DNA from: an uncultured Bacteroidales bacterium
GTDB taxonomy: Bacteria > Bacteroidota > Bacteroidia > Bacteroidales > Bacteroidaceae
NCBI GenBank assembly: GCA_902802265.1
Contig: CADCLN010000005.1
Location: 1 to 64,000 of the forward strand
DNA length: 64,000 nt
Direction: 5' to 3'
Below, one piece after another: positions 11,266 to 44,471 of this stretch. The notes beneath the pieces were generated by a model. The model saw nothing but the letters and a program-made list of their open reading frames with translations. It did not search any database and was not told where the DNA came from. The position numbers were made by a program, and so were the translations under genes. Positions within the stretch are counted from its first letter, which is position 1. Each line of letters begins with the position of its first letter.

Positions 11266-11326
11266 GGTAAATGGTAAATGGTAAATAGTAAATAATAGTA
11301 AATGGTAAATAGTAAATAGTAAATTA
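11266..11326 (+). repeat. Heptamer array (GGTAAAT / AGTAAAT)
   Basis: Seven-base units GGTAAAT and AGTAAAT are repeated about eight times, with one shift, immediately before the GH127 start codon at 11336. It belongs to the same family as the arrays at 23980, 24165, 38982, 57824 and 61720. Confidence 0.85.
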
Positions 11327-13859: not shown

Positions 13860-16169
13860 ATGAAAAAGTTAAGCCTCTTTCTGTTGTCCGTTCTGACAGC
13901 ATTGAGCATGGATGCCCAGATGATAAGTGGTGACTTGAACCACAACGGTGAACTGGATGTGGACGACATCACCTTGCTTATTGGCGGCTATCTGACGGGT
14001 GAAAAAGAAATGATAAACACCCATAACATCATTTACGGTCGTGAATTTGTTGACCTCGGTCTCTCTGTGAATTGGGCAACCACGAATATTGGTGCAAGCC
14101 TCCCCGAAGCGTATGGCAAATACTTTGCTTGGGGTGAAATCAAACCCAAAGACACCTACAGCTGGGCAACATATAAATGGAGCAACGACGCAGGAGATAA
14201 ATTCACCAAGTACAATGCTGCCTACCCCGATTTCGGCGAGGTTGATGGCCATACGGTTCTTGAATCTAAGGATGATGCCGCTCAAATCTTTTGGGGCAAA
14301 CCATGGCGTATGCCTACAGCCAGCGAACTGACCGAACTGAAAGAAAAATGCACCTGGATGTGGGAGGGCCTGAATGGTGTGAACGGCTACCGTGTGACAG
14401 GTCCGAATGGCCATTCCATCTTCTTGCCCGCTGCTGGGTATATAGAGGACAATTCGCTCAAGGCTGAGGGTAGGGAAGGTTGGTATTGGTCGAGTTCGCT
14501 CTGTGATGGCGTTCCTGTCCATGGTAAGTGCATGGGTTTCGATTCGGGCAGTTTCTGGGGTGTCAGTTTCCGTCGTCTCGGACATTGTGTCCGTGCCGTC
14601 TGCCCTCCTGTCCAGATAGAGATTACGCTTTCTGAGACTTCACTTAAAATGTGGGCAGGGAATGCCTCTCAGCTGACAGCCATCGTAGTGCCATACGAAG
14701 GCAGCAGCACCTTGACATGGACATCGAGCGATGAAAACGTAGCCACCGTAGCAGATGGCGTTGTTACTGCCATAGCTCCAGGCTCCGCCGTCATTACAGC
14801 AGAAGTGGCTGGATCAAAAGCCACTTGCGGAGTGACGGTAAAAAGATCAACGGGTACCGACAACGGACATGCTTGGGTTGACCTCGGTCTCTCTGTCAAA
14901 TGGGCAACCATGAATATCGGAACCAGTTGGCCCGAAGGCTACGGCAGCCACTTTGCATGGGGCGAAACATGGGGAAAGGACGACTTCAGCTGGAAAACAT
15001 ACTATCATTGCAACGGATCTTACAACACCCTGACAAAATACAACTGGGATCAAGATTATGGCGGCGGCAAATATGGTTATCGCGATGACAAGTCCACGCT
15101 CGAACTTGCAGACGATGCAGCCCAAAAAACCTGGGGCGGCACATGGCGCATTCCCACCCCCGAAGAATTAGACGAACTAATCACAAAGTGCACGTGGACT
15201 TGGGAAACCCTGAACGAAGTGAACGGCTATCGAGTAGTAGGTCCCAGTGGCCGCTCCATCTTCCTGCCCGCCGCTGGGAGTGGCGTTGACTTAAACATCA
15301 ATGGCGTGGGCAGCATCGGTTGCTATTGGTCCAATCAGCTCTGTTGGGCTGTTCCGACGGATGCAGAGAGCCTGACATTCAAATCCAACAAAGTTTGGAT
15401 AAGCGAGGGTGACTCCCGTGACGTCGGACATAGTGTCCGCGCCGTCTGCTCTCCAACCTCAACAAATCCAGACGTCACCGCCTACACCGTCAATGACGTT
15501 TCGTTCAATATGATCTCTGTAAAGGGTGGCAGATTCGTAATGGGCAGCTCAAATGGCGATGCCGACGAAGCACCCCCTCACTATGTCACAGTGAGCGACT
15601 TCAGCATGGGCGAGACCGAGGTGACGCAAGCCCTCTGGACAGCCGTGATGGGCAACAATCCCTCTCGTTATCAAGGCAACAATCTGCCCGTAAATATGGT
15701 CAATTGGGACGACTGCCAGGAATTTATCACCAAGCTGAACCAACTGACGGGCAAAACCTTCCGTCTGCCGACCGAAGCCGAATGGGAATTTGCAGCACGT
15801 GGTGGCACAAAGAGCCTCAGCAACACCTATTCGGGCAGCAACGTCATTGACGACGTGGCATGGTACGAAACCAACGGGGGCCAAAAACCGCATCTGGTAG
15901 CCACCAAGCAGCCCAATGAAATCGGTCTCTACGACATGAGCGGAAATGTTTTGGAATGGTGTCGAGACAAATATGGCAATTATTCATACACAGAACAAAC
16001 CAATCCCATCGGTTCTACAGAAAGCTCCAGCCTTTACTTCGTGCTACGTGGCGGCAGCTATTTCACCCCTGCTTCCTATTGTCGTGTAGCCTGTCGCTAC
16101 GCCTATGTGCCGAACCACCGTTCTGCGGACATAGGCCTGCGCCTTGTCCTTGTTTCTCCAACAAGATAA
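13860..16169 (+). CDS. Secreted FISUMP-repeat protein with Ig-like and FGE/sulfatase-modifying-like domains
   Basis: 769 residues. After a signal peptide (to about 19) comes a dockerin-like half repeat (GDLNHNGELDVDDITLLIGGYL, residues 24-45), unusually at the N-terminus. Two copies of a Fibrobacter-type paralogous domain follow (about 62-250 and 335-530). Both have VDLGLSV.WAT, YG..FAWGE, WR(M/I)PT and GHSVRAVC-type motifs. A Big_2 Ig-like domain (about 252-328) separates them. The C-terminus (about 548-766) is a formylglycine-generating-enzyme-like fold (MGSS...ETEVTQALW, LPTEAEWEFAARGG, LRGGSY). Two cysteines, Cys741 and Cys745, sit where true FGEs carry their active-site pair, but with a shorter spacing, so enzymatic activity is doubtful. 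Surface adhesion or glycan binding is inferred. Confidence 0.85.
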   Translation: MKKLSLFLLSVLTALSMDAQMISGDLNHNGELDVDDITLLIGGYLTGEKEMINTHNIIYGREFVDLGLSVNWATTNIGASLPEAYGKYFAWGEIKPKDTYSWATYKWSNDAGDKFTKYNAAYPDFGEVDGHTVLESKDDAAQIFWGKPWRMPTASELTELKEKCTWMWEGLNGVNGYRVTGPNGHSIFLPAAGYIEDNSLKAEGREGWYWSSSLCDGVPVHGKCMGFDSGSFWGVSFRRLGHCVRAVCPPVQIEITLSETSLKMWAGNASQLTAIVVPYEGSSTLTWTSSDENVATVADGVVTAIAPGSAVITAEVAGSKATCGVTVKRSTGTDNGHAWVDLGLSVKWATMNIGTSWPEGYGSHFAWGETWGKDDFSWKTYYHCNGSYNTLTKYNWDQDYGGGKYGYRDDKSTLELADDAAQKTWGGTWRIPTPEELDELITKCTWTWETLNEVNGYRVVGPSGRSIFLPAAGSGVDLNINGVGSIGCYWSNQLCWAVPTDAESLTFKSNKVWISEGDSRDVGHSVRAVCSPTSTNPDVTAYTVNDVSFNMISVKGGRFVMGSSNGDADEAPPHYVTVSDFSMGETEVTQALWTAVMGNNPSRYQGNNLPVNMVNWDDCQEFITKLNQLTGKTFRLPTEAEWEFAARGGTKSLSNTYSGSNVIDDVAWYETNGGQKPHLVATKQPNEIGLYDMSGNVLEWCRDKYGNYSYTEQTNPIGSTESSSLYFVLRGGSYFTPASYCRVACRYAYVPNHRSADIGLRLVLVSPTR

Positions 16170-16210
16170 GGCAGACGGAAGGAAAGTGGGCTGGTATAGT
16201 TTTACCGCTT

Positions 16211-16320
16211 GATTACCACTTCTTTGGTAAGGTTTTACCATCGAAGTGGTAATCTTTTACCATATAGCTGGTAAAGTTTTACCATACGTGTGGTAAAGTT
16301 TTACCAAAAAAGTGGTAATC
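16211..16320. repeat. Five tandem 22-nt dyad units (TTTTACCA-N6-TGGTAAAG)
   Basis: Units at 16211-16232, 16233-16254, 16255-16276, 16277-16298 and 16299-16320 are exactly 22 nt each. Every unit has an ACCA...TGGT dyad with arms (T)TTTACCA and TGGTAA(A/T)(G/C). The six central bases differ: cttctt, tcgaag, tatagc, tacgtg and aaaaag. Half units flank the array (ttttacc near 16199, and ggtggtaaaa at 16322). Confidence 0.92.
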
Positions 16321-16470
16321 GGGTGGTAAAATTGTTGTAACCTGATTTTGCTATGGTCGGAGTGGGTATTTGTGCTTTATATCAACGGATTGTGCTTATC
16401 AATTGAGGTAATCAACCGTTGTTTTCGCTAAAAAATCCATTCTCTTACTGCTCTTCTCGTAATTTTTCCG

Positions 16471-16478
16471 TATCTTTG
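16471..16478 (+). promoter_or_regulatory. Promoter of purL
   Basis: TATCTTTG followed by CA fits the -7 consensus, 37 nt before the ATG at 16515. No clear -33 TTG is seen. Confidence 0.6.
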
Positions 16479-16514
16479 CAGCAAATTTACACATTATTTA
16501 TTTAATACACCGTT

Positions 16515-19500
16515 ATGATTTATTTTTTTCAGACACCTGCGAAGAGTATTGTGGCTACCAGTGTGGACCACGAGCTGAGCGCAGATGAAGTGACGCGGCT
16601 GTGCTGGCTCTATGGTGAGGCTACGCTGCTGAGCGACCAGACGCTTACGGGTTTCTTTGTGGGACCTCGTCGTGAAATGATTACCCCCTGGAGTACGAAT
16701 GCTGTGGAGATTACTCAGAATATGGCCATCGGGGGTGTGCAGCGCATTGAGGAGTATTTCCCCGTAGATAGTGCGGAGGCTGACCACGACCCCATGTTGC
16801 AGCGTATGTACAAGGGACTGGATCAGGATATCTTCACTGTGAACATCAAGCCTGCGCCGATTCTTTCCATCGAGAACCTGGAAGCGTATAACGAACAGGA
16901 GGGTCTGGCGCTGTCGCCCGAAGAGATTGAGTACCTGCACAAGGTGGAGGGACAGTTGGGCAGAAAGCTGACCGACTCGGAGGTGTTTGGTTTTGCACAA
17001 ATCAATTCGGAGCATTGCCGCCACAAGATTTTTGGTGGCACGTTCATCATCGACGGTGTAGAGCGCGAGAGTTCGCTCTTCCAGATGATTAAGCGGACTA
17101 CACAGGAACATCCGAACAAGATTCTTTCTGCCTACAAGGACAATGTGGCTTTCAGTCAAGGCCCCGTTGTAGAGCAGTTTGCACCGAAAGACCATGCCAC
17201 CAGCGATTACTTTGTGGTGAAGAACATTGAGTCGGTGATTTCGCTGAAAGCAGAAACCCATAACTTCCCCACGACGGTGGAGCCCTTCAACGGTGCTGCC
17301 ACAGGTACGGGCGGCGAAATTCGCGACCGTATGGGTGGTGGTGTAGGTTCGTGGCCCATTGCCGGTACGGCGGTGTATATGACAAGCTACCCCAGCAGTC
17401 AGCGTCCGTGGCTGTATCAGTCGCCCGAACAGATTCTGATCAAGGCATCGAATGGTGCCAGCGATTTTGGCAACAAGTTCGGACAGCCGCTGATTTGCGG
17501 TTCGGTGCTGACGTTTGAGCATCAGGAGGAACAGGATGCCACGCAGTATGGCTACGACAAAGTCATCATGCTGGCTGGCGGTGTGGGCTACGCCGCGAAG
17601 CGTGACTGCCTGAAGGGTACGCCGCAGAAGGGCAACAAGATTGTCGTGGTGGGTGGTGACAACTACCGCATTGGTCTGGGCGGCGGATCGGTCAGTTCGG
17701 TCGATACGGGTCGTTACAGCAGCGGCATCGAATTGAACGCCGTGCAGCGTGCCAACCCCGAGATGCAGAAGCGTGCCAACAACCTGGTGCGTGCGCTGTG
17801 TGAGGAAGACGTGAACCCCGTGGTGAGCATCCACGACCACGGCAGCGCAGGCCATGTGAACTGTCTGTCGGAGTTGGTAGAGGATTGCGGCGGTCTGATT
17901 GACATGACGAAACTGCCCATCGGCGACAAGACACTCAGTTCGAAAGAGATTATCGCCAACGAAAGTCAGGAACGTATGGGTTTGCTCATCGACGAGAAGC
18001 ACATCGAACATGTGCGGCAGATTGCTGAACGTGAACGTGCTCCGCTGTATGTCGTCGGCGAAACCACAGGGGATGCCCACTTTGCCTTCGTGCAGGGCGA
18101 CGGTGTGCGTCCGTTTGACCTGGATGTGGCTCAGATGTTTGGTCATTCGCCTAAGACCGTGATGCGCGACGAGACCGTTGTGCGGACCTATGAAGGCGTG
18201 ACTTATTCGTATAAAGAAATCGCTCAGTACCTGGAAGGTGTGCTCAGACTGGAGGCTGTGGCTTGCAAAGACTGGCTGACCAACAAGGTGGACCGCAGCG
18301 TAACGGGCAAAGTGGCTCGTCAGCAATGTCAGGGCGAAATCCAGTTGCCGTTGAGCGACTGTGGCGTAGTGGCTTTAGACTATCGCGGCAAGGCAGGCAT
18401 TGCCACTGCCATTGGTCATGCGCCTGGGGCTGGACTGGCAGACCCTGCCGCTGGCAGCGTGCTGAGTGTGGCTGAGTCGTTGACCAATCTGGTCTGGGCA
18501 CCGATGGCCGACGGACTGGAGAGCGTGAGTCTTTCTGCCAACTGGATGTGGCCCTGCCGCAGTCAGCAGGGAGAAGATGCCCGTCTGTATCAGGCTGTGC
18601 AGGCACTGTCCGACTTTTGCATCGAACTGGGTGTGAACGTGCCGACGGGCAAGGATTCGCTGTCGATGACACAGCAATACCCTGACGGTTCGAAGGTGAT
18701 TAGCCCAGGCACCGTCATTGTCAGTTCGGGCGGCGAAGTGAGCGACATCAGAAAAGTGGTTTCGCCTGTGTTGGTGAACGACACCGAGACAACACTCTTG
18801 CACATAGACTTCAGTTTCGACACCCTGAAACTGGGTGGCAGCGCCTTTGCCCAGAGCTTAGGCAAGGTGGGCAGCGATGTGCCGACGGTGAAGAATGCGG
18901 AGTATTTCCGTGATGCCTTCCTCGCCGTGAACCAATTGGTGGCAGAAGAGAAACTGCTGGCTGGACACGACATTTCTGCGGGTGGTTTGATTACTTGTCT
19001 GCTGGAAATGACCTTTGCCAACAAGGAGGGTGGTATAGACGCCAACCTGAAGGACATTGCCGAGAAAGACCCCGTGAAAGTGCTGTTCGCCGAAAACCCA
19101 GGTGTGGTGGTTCAGGTGAAGAATGCCGACCTGAAGGATGTGGAGCAGCAGCTCGACCATGCCGGTGTGGGCTATGTGGAAATAGGTCACCCCATCGCCG
19201 AGCGTGTAGTGAAGGTAAAGAAGGACGGTCGTACCCGCGTGTTTGACATCGACCATCTGCGCGACGTTTGGTATGAAACCTCTTACCGCCTTGACACGAA
19301 GCAGAGTTCGGGCGGCATGGCAAAGGAGCGTTTCCAGAATTACAAGCAGCAGCCCATTGAGCATCAATTCCGTCCCGACTTCACGGGTAAGTTGGCGCAG
19401 TATGGCCTTGAGTGTCTCAACACCCCACACGCCAACCGCCCCAAAGCAGCCATCATCCGCGAAAAGGGTACGAATGGTGAGCGCGAAATGGCTTACTCGC

Positions 19501-20234
19501 TCTATTTGGCAGGCTTCGACGTGAAAGACGTGATGATGACCGACCTGGTTTCTGGACGCGAAACGCTGGCAGATATCCGCATGATTGTGTTCTGTGGAGG
19601 TTTCTCCAATTCCGATGTGCTGGGCAGTGCAAAGGGCTGGGCTGGAGCTTTCCTGTTCAATCCGAAAGCCAAGGCAGCGCTGGATGCGTTCTATGCTCGT
19701 GAAGACACGCTGTCGCTGGGCATCTGCAATGGTTGTCAGCTGATGGTGGAACTGGGACTTGTCAACCAGGCTGCGGTGGCAACAGGCAAGCTGCTGGATG
19801 CAGACCGGCTGGTGGACTACAAACACCACTATGCCGAGATGCGCCACAATGTGAGCCACAAATTCGAGAGTGCGTTTGTCACCCTTCAGATTCCTGAGAA
19901 CCGCAGCGTGATGTTTGGTTCGCTCAGTGGCAACAAACTGGGCATTTGGGTGGCTCACGGTGAAGGCAACTTCCATTTGCCACAGGCCGAAAGCGAATAC
20001 AACATCGTGGCAAAATACCGCTACTCAGGCTATCCTGCCAATCCGAATGGTTCTACCTACGACGTGGCAGGCATCTGTTCTGCCGACGGTCGTCATTTAG
20101 CCATGATGCCCCACTTGGAGCGTGCCATCTTCCCGTGGCAACAGGCTCATTACCCTGCTGACCGCAGAAAGGATGAAGTGACCCCGTGGATAGAAGCCTT
20201 TGTCAATGCACGTAAATGGATAGAAAAGCGTTAA
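16515..20234 (+). CDS. purL: Phosphoribosylformylglycinamidine synthase (single-chain PurL)
   Basis: The ATP-dependent enzyme that turns FGAR into FGAM with glutamine nitrogen, the fourth step of purine synthesis. The 1239 residues are the large single-chain form, fusing the synthetase and glutaminase. Visible motifs are NSEHCRHKIF (about 158-167), KAETHNFPT with GAATGTGGEIRD (near 250-275), and a class I glutaminase domain in the last quarter, with GICNGCQLM holding the nucleophile near Cys1071. Codons are G-ending rather than C-ending. It has its own promoter. A small membrane protein follows 28 nt later. No purine riboswitch was seen. Confidence 0.97.
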   Translation: MIYFFQTPAKSIVATSVDHELSADEVTRLCWLYGEATLLSDQTLTGFFVGPRREMITPWSTNAVEITQNMAIGGVQRIEEYFPVDSAEADHDPMLQRMYKGLDQDIFTVNIKPAPILSIENLEAYNEQEGLALSPEEIEYLHKVEGQLGRKLTDSEVFGFAQINSEHCRHKIFGGTFIIDGVERESSLFQMIKRTTQEHPNKILSAYKDNVAFSQGPVVEQFAPKDHATSDYFVVKNIESVISLKAETHNFPTTVEPFNGAATGTGGEIRDRMGGGVGSWPIAGTAVYMTSYPSSQRPWLYQSPEQILIKASNGASDFGNKFGQPLICGSVLTFEHQEEQDATQYGYDKVIMLAGGVGYAAKRDCLKGTPQKGNKIVVVGGDNYRIGLGGGSVSSVDTGRYSSGIELNAVQRANPEMQKRANNLVRALCEEDVNPVVSIHDHGSAGHVNCLSELVEDCGGLIDMTKLPIGDKTLSSKEIIANESQERMGLLIDEKHIEHVRQIAERERAPLYVVGETTGDAHFAFVQGDGVRPFDLDVAQMFGHSPKTVMRDETVVRTYEGVTYSYKEIAQYLEGVLRLEAVACKDWLTNKVDRSVTGKVARQQCQGEIQLPLSDCGVVALDYRGKAGIATAIGHAPGAGLADPAAGSVLSVAESLTNLVWAPMADGLESVSLSANWMWPCRSQQGEDARLYQAVQALSDFCIELGVNVPTGKDSLSMTQQYPDGSKVISPGTVIVSSGGEVSDIRKVVSPVLVNDTETTLLHIDFSFDTLKLGGSAFAQSLGKVGSDVPTVKNAEYFRDAFLAVNQLVAEEKLLAGHDISAGGLITCLLEMTFANKEGGIDANLKDIAEKDPVKVLFAENPGVVVQVKNADLKDVEQQLDHAGVGYVEIGHPIAERVVKVKKDGRTRVFDIDHLRDVWYETSYRLDTKQSSGGMAKERFQNYKQQPIEHQFRPDFTGKLAQYGLECLNTPHANRPKAAIIREKGTNGEREMAYSLYLAGFDVKDVMMTDLVSGRETLADIRMIVFCGGFSNSDVLGSAKGWAGAFLFNPKAKAALDAFYAREDTLSLGICNGCQLMVELGLVNQAAVATGKLLDADRLVDYKHHYAEMRHNVSHKFESAFVTLQIPENRSVMFGSLSGNKLGIWVAHGEGNFHLPQAESEYNIVAKYRYSGYPANPNGSTYDVAGICSADGRHLAMMPHLERAIFPWQQAHYPADRRKDEVTPWIEAFVNARKWIEKR

Positions 20235-23973: not shown

Positions 23974-24196
23974 AGAATTATTTACCATTTACCATTTACC
24001 ATTTACTATTTACCATTTACCATTTACCATTTTTTTGCAAAAACATCCCGCATTCTTCGCCACAGATTACACAGATTTTTCAGATTACACAAATGATTCT
24101 TCATTTTTCATTTTTTATTATTCTTTATTCTTCATTTTTCACTACCTTTGTTAGGAAAAAATAGTAAATGGTAAATGGTAAATGGTAAATAATTCT

Positions 24197-24204
24197 TACC
24201 TTTG
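24197..24204 (+). promoter_or_regulatory. Promoter of the GT9 glycosyltransferase gene
   Basis: TACCTTTG is an exact -7 match, 24 nt before the ATG at 24229, at the end of a heptamer array. Confidence 0.75.
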
Positions 24205-24228
24205 CAGATAAAACGTAATAACGTAACA

Positions 24229-38980: not shown

Positions 38981-39018
38981 ATGGTAAATGGTAAATGGTA
39001 AATAATTCTTACCTTTGC
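38981..39018 (+). repeat. Heptamer array joined to the 20-nt promoter block
   Basis: ATGGTAA units (about three) run into TAAATAATTCTTACCTTTGC at 38999-39018, identical to the blocks at 23965-23984, 24186-24205 and 48712-48731. Confidence 0.9.
39010..39017 (+). promoter_or_regulatory. Promoter of the CHASE2-CHAT operon
   Basis: TACCTTTG, an exact -7 match, 24 nt before the ATG at 39041. Confidence 0.75.
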
Positions 39019-44053: not shown

Positions 44054-44471
44054 GAAAATTCCTTATTAGTGGAAATTCAATTTCAGAAAAGCATACCCCC
44101 CCTTTCCCCTTTTCTTCACCGCATATTTTGTAAAATAGGTTCCCAGAGTTAAAACAACGCCATCGTTTCTATAAACAACGGCGTTGTTTTTAAAAACATC
44201 GACGCTGTTTCTACAAACATCGCCGATGTTTTAACTTTTGAGCCGTGTTTCAGTGAAAATGGTGCATAGTTCTGTTTATTTTCATGCTCAAAGCAATTGG
44301 ATTTCTATTGTAGTTTACCGAAAGATTTTCTTGGTGGTATATTCCAGCGGATAATCATATCATAAGAAATAAATTCTCAGACAAAGAGATAAGCAAAGTA
44401 CATGTCTATGAAACGAGTACGTGCCTGAATGACAATCGCAGAAGTCAAACCGGCACGGAATTTAAACTCGT
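44054..44471. other. Convergent intergenic region CHAT / MFS transporter
   Basis: This 418-nt region carries the 21-nt dyad array (44152-44235) about 100 nt after the CHAT stop. The remainder is AT-rich with no recognised gene, and no simple terminator was recognised. Confidence 0.65.
44148..44235. repeat. Four tandem 21-nt dyad units (AAACAWCG-N-CGWTGTTT)
   Basis: Units start at 44152, 44173, 44194 and 44215, exactly 21 nt apart. The second (AAACAACGGCGTTGTTT) and fourth (AAACATCGCCGATGTTT) are perfect 17-nt palindromes; the first and third are near-perfect. The whole array is bounded by GTTAAAAC (44148-44155) and its complement GTTTTAAC (44228-44235). Confidence 0.92.

Follow-up and report, generated by a model that had tools for sequence, protein, structure and literature searches.

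What does a row of short, regularly spaced palindromes do in the gap between a gene for a secreted-type protein and purL? The question arises from a 64,000-nucleotide stretch of DNA from an uncultured Bacteroidales bacterium, a rumen-type relative of Prevotella, analysed as a whole and called the window below. At 16211–16320, five units of the pattern TTTACCA-N6-TGGTAAA follow each other on the forward strand at exact 22-nt steps. Their central hexamers are CTTCTT (unit 1, 16211–16232), TCGAAG (unit 2, 16233–16254), TATAGC (unit 3, 16255–16276), TACGTG (unit 4, 16277–16298) and AAAAAG (unit 5, 16299–16320), no two alike. The initial annotation of this DNA had reported five exact units; the 22-nt spacing and the differing hexamers stand, but the arms match at all 14 bases in only two of the five (units 3 and 4), while units 1, 2 and 5 have 2, 1 and 1 arm mismatches, respectively. 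Allowing up to two mismatches, the window holds seven matches to the pattern, five of them within the array, against 0.20 expected, and the maximum in any of 100 shuffled windows was one. The window array is confirmed as real and not a chance occurrence. Its operator-like helical phasing, also proposed in that annotation, holds down to 11 bp: a 137-bp ladder (16192–16328) carries 13 half-sites in an unbroken 11-bp register, each TACCA or TGGTA except for one TACCG, as read from the sequence, and this register recurs over the 32 array ends of the host genome. The three half-sites outside the five units, all given on the forward strand, are TGGTA at 16192–16196, read from the sequence 22 bp ahead of the first half-site of unit 1; TACCG at 16203–16207, 11 bp ahead of that half-site and in the same direction, where the column at −11 is conserved over array ends; and TGGTA at 16324–16328, 11 bp past the last half-site of unit 5, read from the sequence and from the array-end columns.

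The placement of the array was borne out by Pfam matches and sequence. The upstream gene (13860–16169, forward strand) encodes a protein of secreted type that contains Big_2, Lcl_C and FGE-sulfatase domains, and its stop lies 22 nt ahead of the ladder; the start codon of purL (16515–20234, forward strand, FGAR-AT domains) lies 187 nt past it, and the promoter-like TATCTTTG box of purL begins at 16471, about 140 nt downstream of the ladder end, as annotated. A sigma-70 scan gave no match, and a terminator scan of 16100–16600 returned a single site, which falls inside the upstream gene, where chance alone would give 0.8. The best Rfam matches were eukaryotic microRNA precursors, all below gathering scores, which are taken as hairpin artefacts. 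Gene neighbours were called by a simple longest-ORF script; the identities of purL, recX, sigma, AraC, GerE, SDF and Y1 genes rest on Pfam, and the genes named cysK, glyA and metY are what we take them to be by recognition.

A search of the host genome (G000, 2.88 Mb, 85.65% complete) for the same dyad at 22-nt spacing, as the initial annotation had advised, was productive. It yielded 90 dyads (≤2 mismatches) versus 9 for the reversed pattern, 59 tandem dyad pairs versus 0 for the control, and at least 16 dispersed arrays, the window array and 15 other loci, with 4–6 units each and 78 units in total. These 16 are the arrays with at least one exact unit as an anchor, and there may be further ones. 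Spacing was 22 nt in all of them. A period scan over 237 kb, comprising the window, the 15 array loci, the host cysK locus and seven loci of a congener (G063) and thus mostly picked for arrays, assigned 23 stretches to period 22, and no other period between 15 and 30 had more than two. All 16 arrays lie between ORFs, bar three, which run into ORFs of 205, 89 and 70 aa, the longest of these being touched right at its beginning; we take these for wrong ORF or start calls. By the crude ORF call (n = 16), 2 arrays are flanked by convergent, 8 by codirectional and 6 by divergent genes. Ten neighbours were typed by Pfam: besides purL, these are recX, one gene of the DAHP-synthase family, one for an ECF sigma factor, one for an AraC regulator, and glycosidase, peptidase and secreted genes. 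They share no obvious regulon or pathway. A second type of 22-nt array, TGGCAAAGTTCTCCC plus a variable part with inverted copies alongside, was seen in the same genome near cysK (L078, 1231–1330) and near a Y1 transposase gene (L149, about 2310–2465).

Conservation within the units is sharply partitioned. Across the 78 units, the TTACCA columns are conserved in 74–78 and the TGGTAA columns in 70–77, whereas the highest hexamer column reaches 43 of 78. As units were chosen at ≤2 mismatches in ten core bases, only the outer T (78/78) and outer A (73/78) columns, which lie outside the search core, are free of selection bias. At the six inner arm pairs, no unit of the 78 deviates on both sides of one pair; arm changes are thus never compensated. 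Among 77 tested units, 52 different hexamers occur, and neighbouring hexamers are identical in 8 of 61 pairs, with 0.9 expected and none of 5000 shuffles as high, although units of one array are related through duplication and the shuffle results are hence not exact probabilities. Identical neighbours, varied hexamers and conserved arms together indicate tandem duplication, hexamer drift and retention of the half-sites. The suggestion of selection on the dyad is supported in the sense that selection on the half-sites, and not slippage alone, accounts for the uncompensated half-site conservation, but tandem duplication is also at work. At the 32 array ends of the host genome only the 11-bp half-site register continues outward, gone by about 22 nt, and the half-sites there hold this register even when arranged as direct repeats; end hexamers of CTTCTT/AAGAAG type recur. 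Self-complementarity of the host hexamers was below column shuffles (69 vs 82.6 of 234, lower tail 0.022; in a stricter unit set 66 vs 75.7, lower tail 0.071), unlike that of the hexamers of G063 and of genus g27, which was not.

The TACCA word itself is narrowly distributed. Tandem pairs occur in 2 of 45 genomes of the genus, the host (54) and G063 (15), a roe-deer abomasum MAG that is the only match among the 44 other congener genomes. A scan for 2.5 dyads in one genome per species (84,980 species), which may miss records very near the host genome, returned 9 stretches: seven in RGIG3754, a roe-deer abomasum MAG taken as G063; one in RUG733, an uncultured Prevotellaceae, with another word (arms GTACCA/TGGTAC); and one in Halobacteriovorax that looks like chance. 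At places where an ORF was found, the genes flanking the G063 and RUG733 arrays matched those of the host arrays only as secreted-gene paralogues near the window array (40–60%, in pieces), apart from one weak RUG733 pair (28%). Because the word of G063 sits at places with non-matching flanks, the secreted paralogues aside, conservation follows the word and not the locus. Absence of the array from all close relatives, together with lack of protein binding and of a transcript, had been named as pointing to chance expansion; among relatives the outcome is mixed, as G063 has no array upstream of its purL but carries the array family elsewhere. In a viral collection, no contig matched the two-dyad TACCA pattern and two matched a TGGCA pattern; a viral origin was set aside for want of a contig with the TACCA pattern.

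We tentatively read the ladder as a DNA target that offers multiple sites to a dimeric protein recognising a specific sequence, a reading to which we give a probability of roughly 45% on the sequence data, and the arrays of the host and its relatives suggest an undescribed DNA-reading protein or element. Like an operator, the ladder combines palindromic half-sites with helical register, and across the host arrays the half-sites are conserved above the spacer; the use of one word at 16 host loci and in a second species, without compensatory arm change, also favours a protein target. The sequences themselves show the period and register, the dispersal, the conserved half-sites, the drift of the hexamers, the duplication and the lineage-specific words; a protein reader, its dimeric state and any effect on neighbouring genes are inferred. 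Half-sites of about six bases (TTACCA/TGGTAA), one per helical turn of 11 bp and mostly on alternating strands, would allow dimers to bind next to one another along a single face of the helix, giving a nucleoprotein tract some 140 bp long. Local tandem duplication would multiply the units and the hexamers would then drift, while a trans-acting reader would preserve the half-sites. Since each lineage has its own word, reader and arrays would change together between lineages, and since the typed neighbours form no obvious regulon, the arrays would more likely have a structural function or insulate transcription units from one another than control specific genes.

A lead to the reader comes from cysK in the congeners. 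The pattern TACCA-N6-TGGTA-N6-TACCA-N6-TGG (≤3 mismatches) lies upstream of cysK at 14 of 30 congener loci but is absent from all 120 control windows, and all 14 loci fall in one paralogue class of 18 (L058–L075); the host cysK that was examined belongs to the other paralogue class and lacks it, which weighs against the protein-target reading. A further copy at L021 adjoins a GerE-domain gene, ahead of a gene without a Pfam match, and at L018 a copy lies ahead of a gene similar to that of L021, followed by an SDF symporter. A GerE/LuxR-type regulator is, by this gene's domain, the only named candidate reader. A literature search found no description of a cysK-type operator. It shares with the arrays the TACCA half-sites, alternating strands, 11-bp register and 22-bp repeat, but has two dyads only, lies 65–145 nt before the start codon and belongs to one kind of gene. 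The common half-site and register, the L021 (GerE) and L018 (SDF) copies included, would also suit a classic regulon, in which the arrays are operators of a sulfur/cysteine regulator that activates or represses adjacent genes. This we hold to be very improbable, as the typed array neighbours of the host have no common pathway and the window ladder stops about 140 nt short of the purL promoter-like box.

Alternatively, the arrays might be REP/BIME-like hairpins of RNA or DNA at gene ends, where an array, once transcribed, would form a long stem able to terminate, insulate or shield the transcripts of neighbouring genes. For the host we consider this unlikely, though the evidence divides by lineage. 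On both strands, all 14 arrays that were folded (7 of the 16 host arrays, 6 from g27 and one congener purL array) gave z-scores of −3.6 to −13.3, but any tandem dyad folds well and the scores are weak evidence. The window ladder begins 22 nt past a stop codon, and the sole terminator-scan site lies in the upstream gene. A string of RNA hairpins, the alternative given in the initial annotation, may still form: the window array is predicted to fold (−74.7 kcal/mol, z −13.3), but mirrored spacers of the host arrays are at, near or below the shuffle mean on four measures (0.538/0.635, 0.737/0.768, 0.448/0.494, 0.647/0.640) and thus no more complementary than shuffles. In the host, moreover, the outer pairs of the stem show less complementarity than shuffled ones, changes in one arm find no matching change in the other (0 doubles at six inner pairs in 78 units) and only 2 of 16 arrays lie between convergent genes; pairing would suffice for a hairpin, and one word at 16 loci in two species is not required by it. 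In G063, a hexamers-only mirror test gave 0.653 versus 0.55 (P 0.027, 6 arrays), with the other mirror tests near null and outer stem pairs rarer than in shuffles. In g27 the hairpin is supported. Arrays lie between convergent genes at 10 of 20 loci (19 from g27, one from g39) versus 6 of 61 other gaps at the same loci. A separate neighbour count, made on a mixed set whose genomes overlap with these and omitting L120, L138, L139 and L140, placed 10 of 19 loci between convergent genes. In 25 g27 arrays, pairing of the mirrored spacers exceeded that in every one of 1000 shuffles; the test used TGGCA-word loci and left out L124, L126, L133, L136, L163, L166 and L167, which have other words. Such convergent siting and complementary mirrored spacers fit hairpins better than operators. 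Hence the g27 arrays may serve as gene-end hairpins, whereas a protein target is favoured for the host.

In the available text of two papers, REP/BIME elements are short extragenic palindromes of species-specific sequence, sometimes grouped (PMC3733652, PMC6006769), and in this the arrays resemble them; in the arrays, by comparison with that text, no GTAG/CGTC tag was seen, the phasing is strictly 22 bp and the host Y1 transposase is not attached. The excerpted text of PMC6006769 also describes a Y1 superfamily subclass 2.6, mostly from Bacteroidetes, which has atypical secondary structures at its flanks, further copies of these being present at other places in the genome. A PF01797 search of 30 genomes gave matches in 8, namely in 6 of 17 array-bearing genomes (G000, G086, G350, G145, G411, G176) and in 2 of 13 others (G067, G003). 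A RAYT-like Y1 transposase gene of the host (L149, 1360–2060) is bracketed by its own long palindromes of the GCCAGCCAT... type; these flanks were read by eye for this one gene, and a second, weaker host match exists. Ownership of the arrays by a RAYT was rejected on these unrelated palindromes, and because of them an identity as REP with RAYT fails.

A dispersed repeat without host function, MITE- or minisatellite-like, could also have been spread and trimmed by recombination, its arms kept through youth or by a mobilising enzyme. The restriction to the host and G063 among 45 congener genomes, the two Prevotella-type MAGs (one with another word) given by the genome scan, the tandem duplication and the recurring CTTCTT/AAGAAG-type end hexamers all speak for such a repeat. 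We nevertheless find it doubtful: neutral arms should decay as fast as the hexamers and do not, there is no long terminal inverted repeat, as conservation dies out within some 22 nt of the array ends, the Y1/RAYT gene of the host has other palindromes at its flanks, and the two-dyad pattern is absent from the contigs of the viral collection. Porphyromonas gingivalis belongs to the same order as the host. It carries a similar element, termed a MITE in the portion of PMC4596501 available, which is called BrickBuilt (Klein et al. 2015, PMC4596501) and is described there as forming 19 intergenic sets built from 23-nt units; the majority of the sets have a leader or tail and IS5-like ends. On that description the likeness is close, both elements being intergenic and dispersed, of near-identical unit length, with conserved and variable positions and no spacers between units. 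The host arrays differ in the 22-nt unit (23 nt in BrickBuilt), in the 4–6 units per array (1 to 22.8 per set) and in their ends, none of the 32 host ends having a leader or tail with IS5-type inverted repeats; a dyad or an 11-bp half-site register is not reported in the BrickBuilt text compared, which did not extend to the logo figure. Thus, the host arrays are intergenic and dispersed, but lack the 23-nt unit and the terminal inverted repeats, and because unit length and ends fail they are not BrickBuilt, which, as far as its partial text goes, is the nearest described element. CRISPR repeats, in the part of PMC3733652 available, are 24–48 bp long with regularly sized non-repetitive spacers; with a 16-nt repeat core and a 6-nt variable part, the host arrays were rejected as CRISPR arrays. 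A literature search, with subscription journals mostly outside its coverage, found among the papers listed no 22-nt dyad arrays described in Bacteroides or Prevotella, and the available portions of PMC2267715, PMC5771137 and PMC10969869 contain no report of them.

The geometry reaches well beyond the TACCA word. Three CCA-N6-TGG dyads at period 22 (1 mismatch) were found in 56 of 399 sampled genomes of the family, in 12 of 30 genera, versus 4 of 399 for a period-23 control; a reversed-pattern control matched 13 genomes but may catch inverse-word arrays, and the period-23 control is the cleaner one. Sequences were read for 23 loci of the 56 genomes, the others being seen as match rows or counts; the 56 include a near-perfect simple 22-nt repeat (G193) and a locus that is not centred (G305). 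Words differ by lineage, with TGGCA-N6-TGCCA in many g27 genomes, TGGGG in G170, TGGAG in G350, TGGTC in G411 and TGGCG in G176. In a phylum sample, 6 of 395 genomes matched the same period-22 pattern: the host, one genome of another family of the same order with TGGCA arrays (G837), three genomes from one family of another order, whose matches are similar to each other, and one genome with a simple repeat. On this sample, which includes only six genomes of the order, the 22-bp architecture looks confined to Bacteroidales. The initial annotation appears mostly right in its operator-like reading, but the window array is one copy of a dispersed family and of a family-wide architecture. Several period-23 matches in G092 and G117 (genus g49) read as 23-nt dyad arrays, the BrickBuilt length.

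Fixed geometry with lineage-specific words in 56 of 399 genomes of a major gut family is unexplained by any described element that we found. Should the arrays have a protein reader, a new chromosome-organising or regulatory layer would be added to Bacteroides- and Prevotella-like bacteria; as gene-end hairpins, the arrays would instead be the REP elements' counterpart in Bacteroidales; and in either case BrickBuilt would no longer be an oddity of one species. More speculatively, and in our view rather improbably, Bacteroidales may harbour a fast-evolving pair of an unrecognised DNA-binding protein and genome-wide phased half-site arrays, the word rewritten by lineage and the 22-bp architecture kept, comparable to eukaryotic satellite repeats and their binding proteins.

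Array places may be partly shared between relatives while the word is not. Among 87 congener loci (purL, cysK and glyA; 324 kb), repeats numbered 12 at period 23, 6 at period 24 and 1 at period 22, and no other period between 12 and 40 had more than two; one AT-rich stretch and the orthologous pairs L181/L184, L101/L102 and L110/L113 are among those counted. Of 29 relatives, 9 carry a 22–24-nt repeat (score ≥0.72) in the 450 nt ahead of purL, six of them with a shared GTSTGASTCASAC-type core. Around glyA, where the host has a TACCA array, repeats of this type occur at 5 of 29 relatives (L180, L181, L184, L192, L200), and around cysK at 2 of 29 (L085, L087); purL and glyA were chosen because the host has arrays there. 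In G063, the glyA locus (L180) has a 22-nt array with a different word between the same two genes as in the host; none of the other relatives, out of 29 read, had a recognisable left-hand gene, so that glyA offered no empty site. An empty-site comparison at a G339 locus gave matches in only 2 other genomes of 70. Congeners carry other words near purL and glyA and the host has a second array type; a single word per genome is therefore not universal, which tells against the protein-target reading. The GTSTGASTCASAC-core dyad arrays upstream of purL (L100, L101, L102, L104, L110, L113) are placed similarly to the window array, and their outer arm bases are swapped on both sides between species (CGGT..ACCG vs GGGT..ACCC).

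The window also contains (AAATGGT)n heptamer arrays, among them those at 11266–11318, 23980–24032, 24159–24210 and 38981–39010. Arrays of at least three TTTACCA heptamers number five in the window, one in 120 kb of other host loci, and none in 324 kb of congener loci or 57 kb of G063. Three of the five in the window run straight into promoter-like TTACCTTTG / TTACCTTTGC boxes; for this reason the heptamer arrays look like a separate thing, in which a change in copy number could alter promoter spacing. A congener locus (L091) has a degenerate heptamer array in the same setting, in a genome without 22-mers. The idea that one protein reads both repeats has the shared word TTTACCA in its favour, but G063 has 22-mers and no heptamer array in the 57 kb examined, and the L091 genome shows the reverse, with its degenerate array. 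Finally, a different dyad array is present in the window at 44147–44233, with four units of AAACAACG-N-CGTTGTTT type at period 21; one of these, AAACATCG..CGATGTTT, shows a matched change on both arms.
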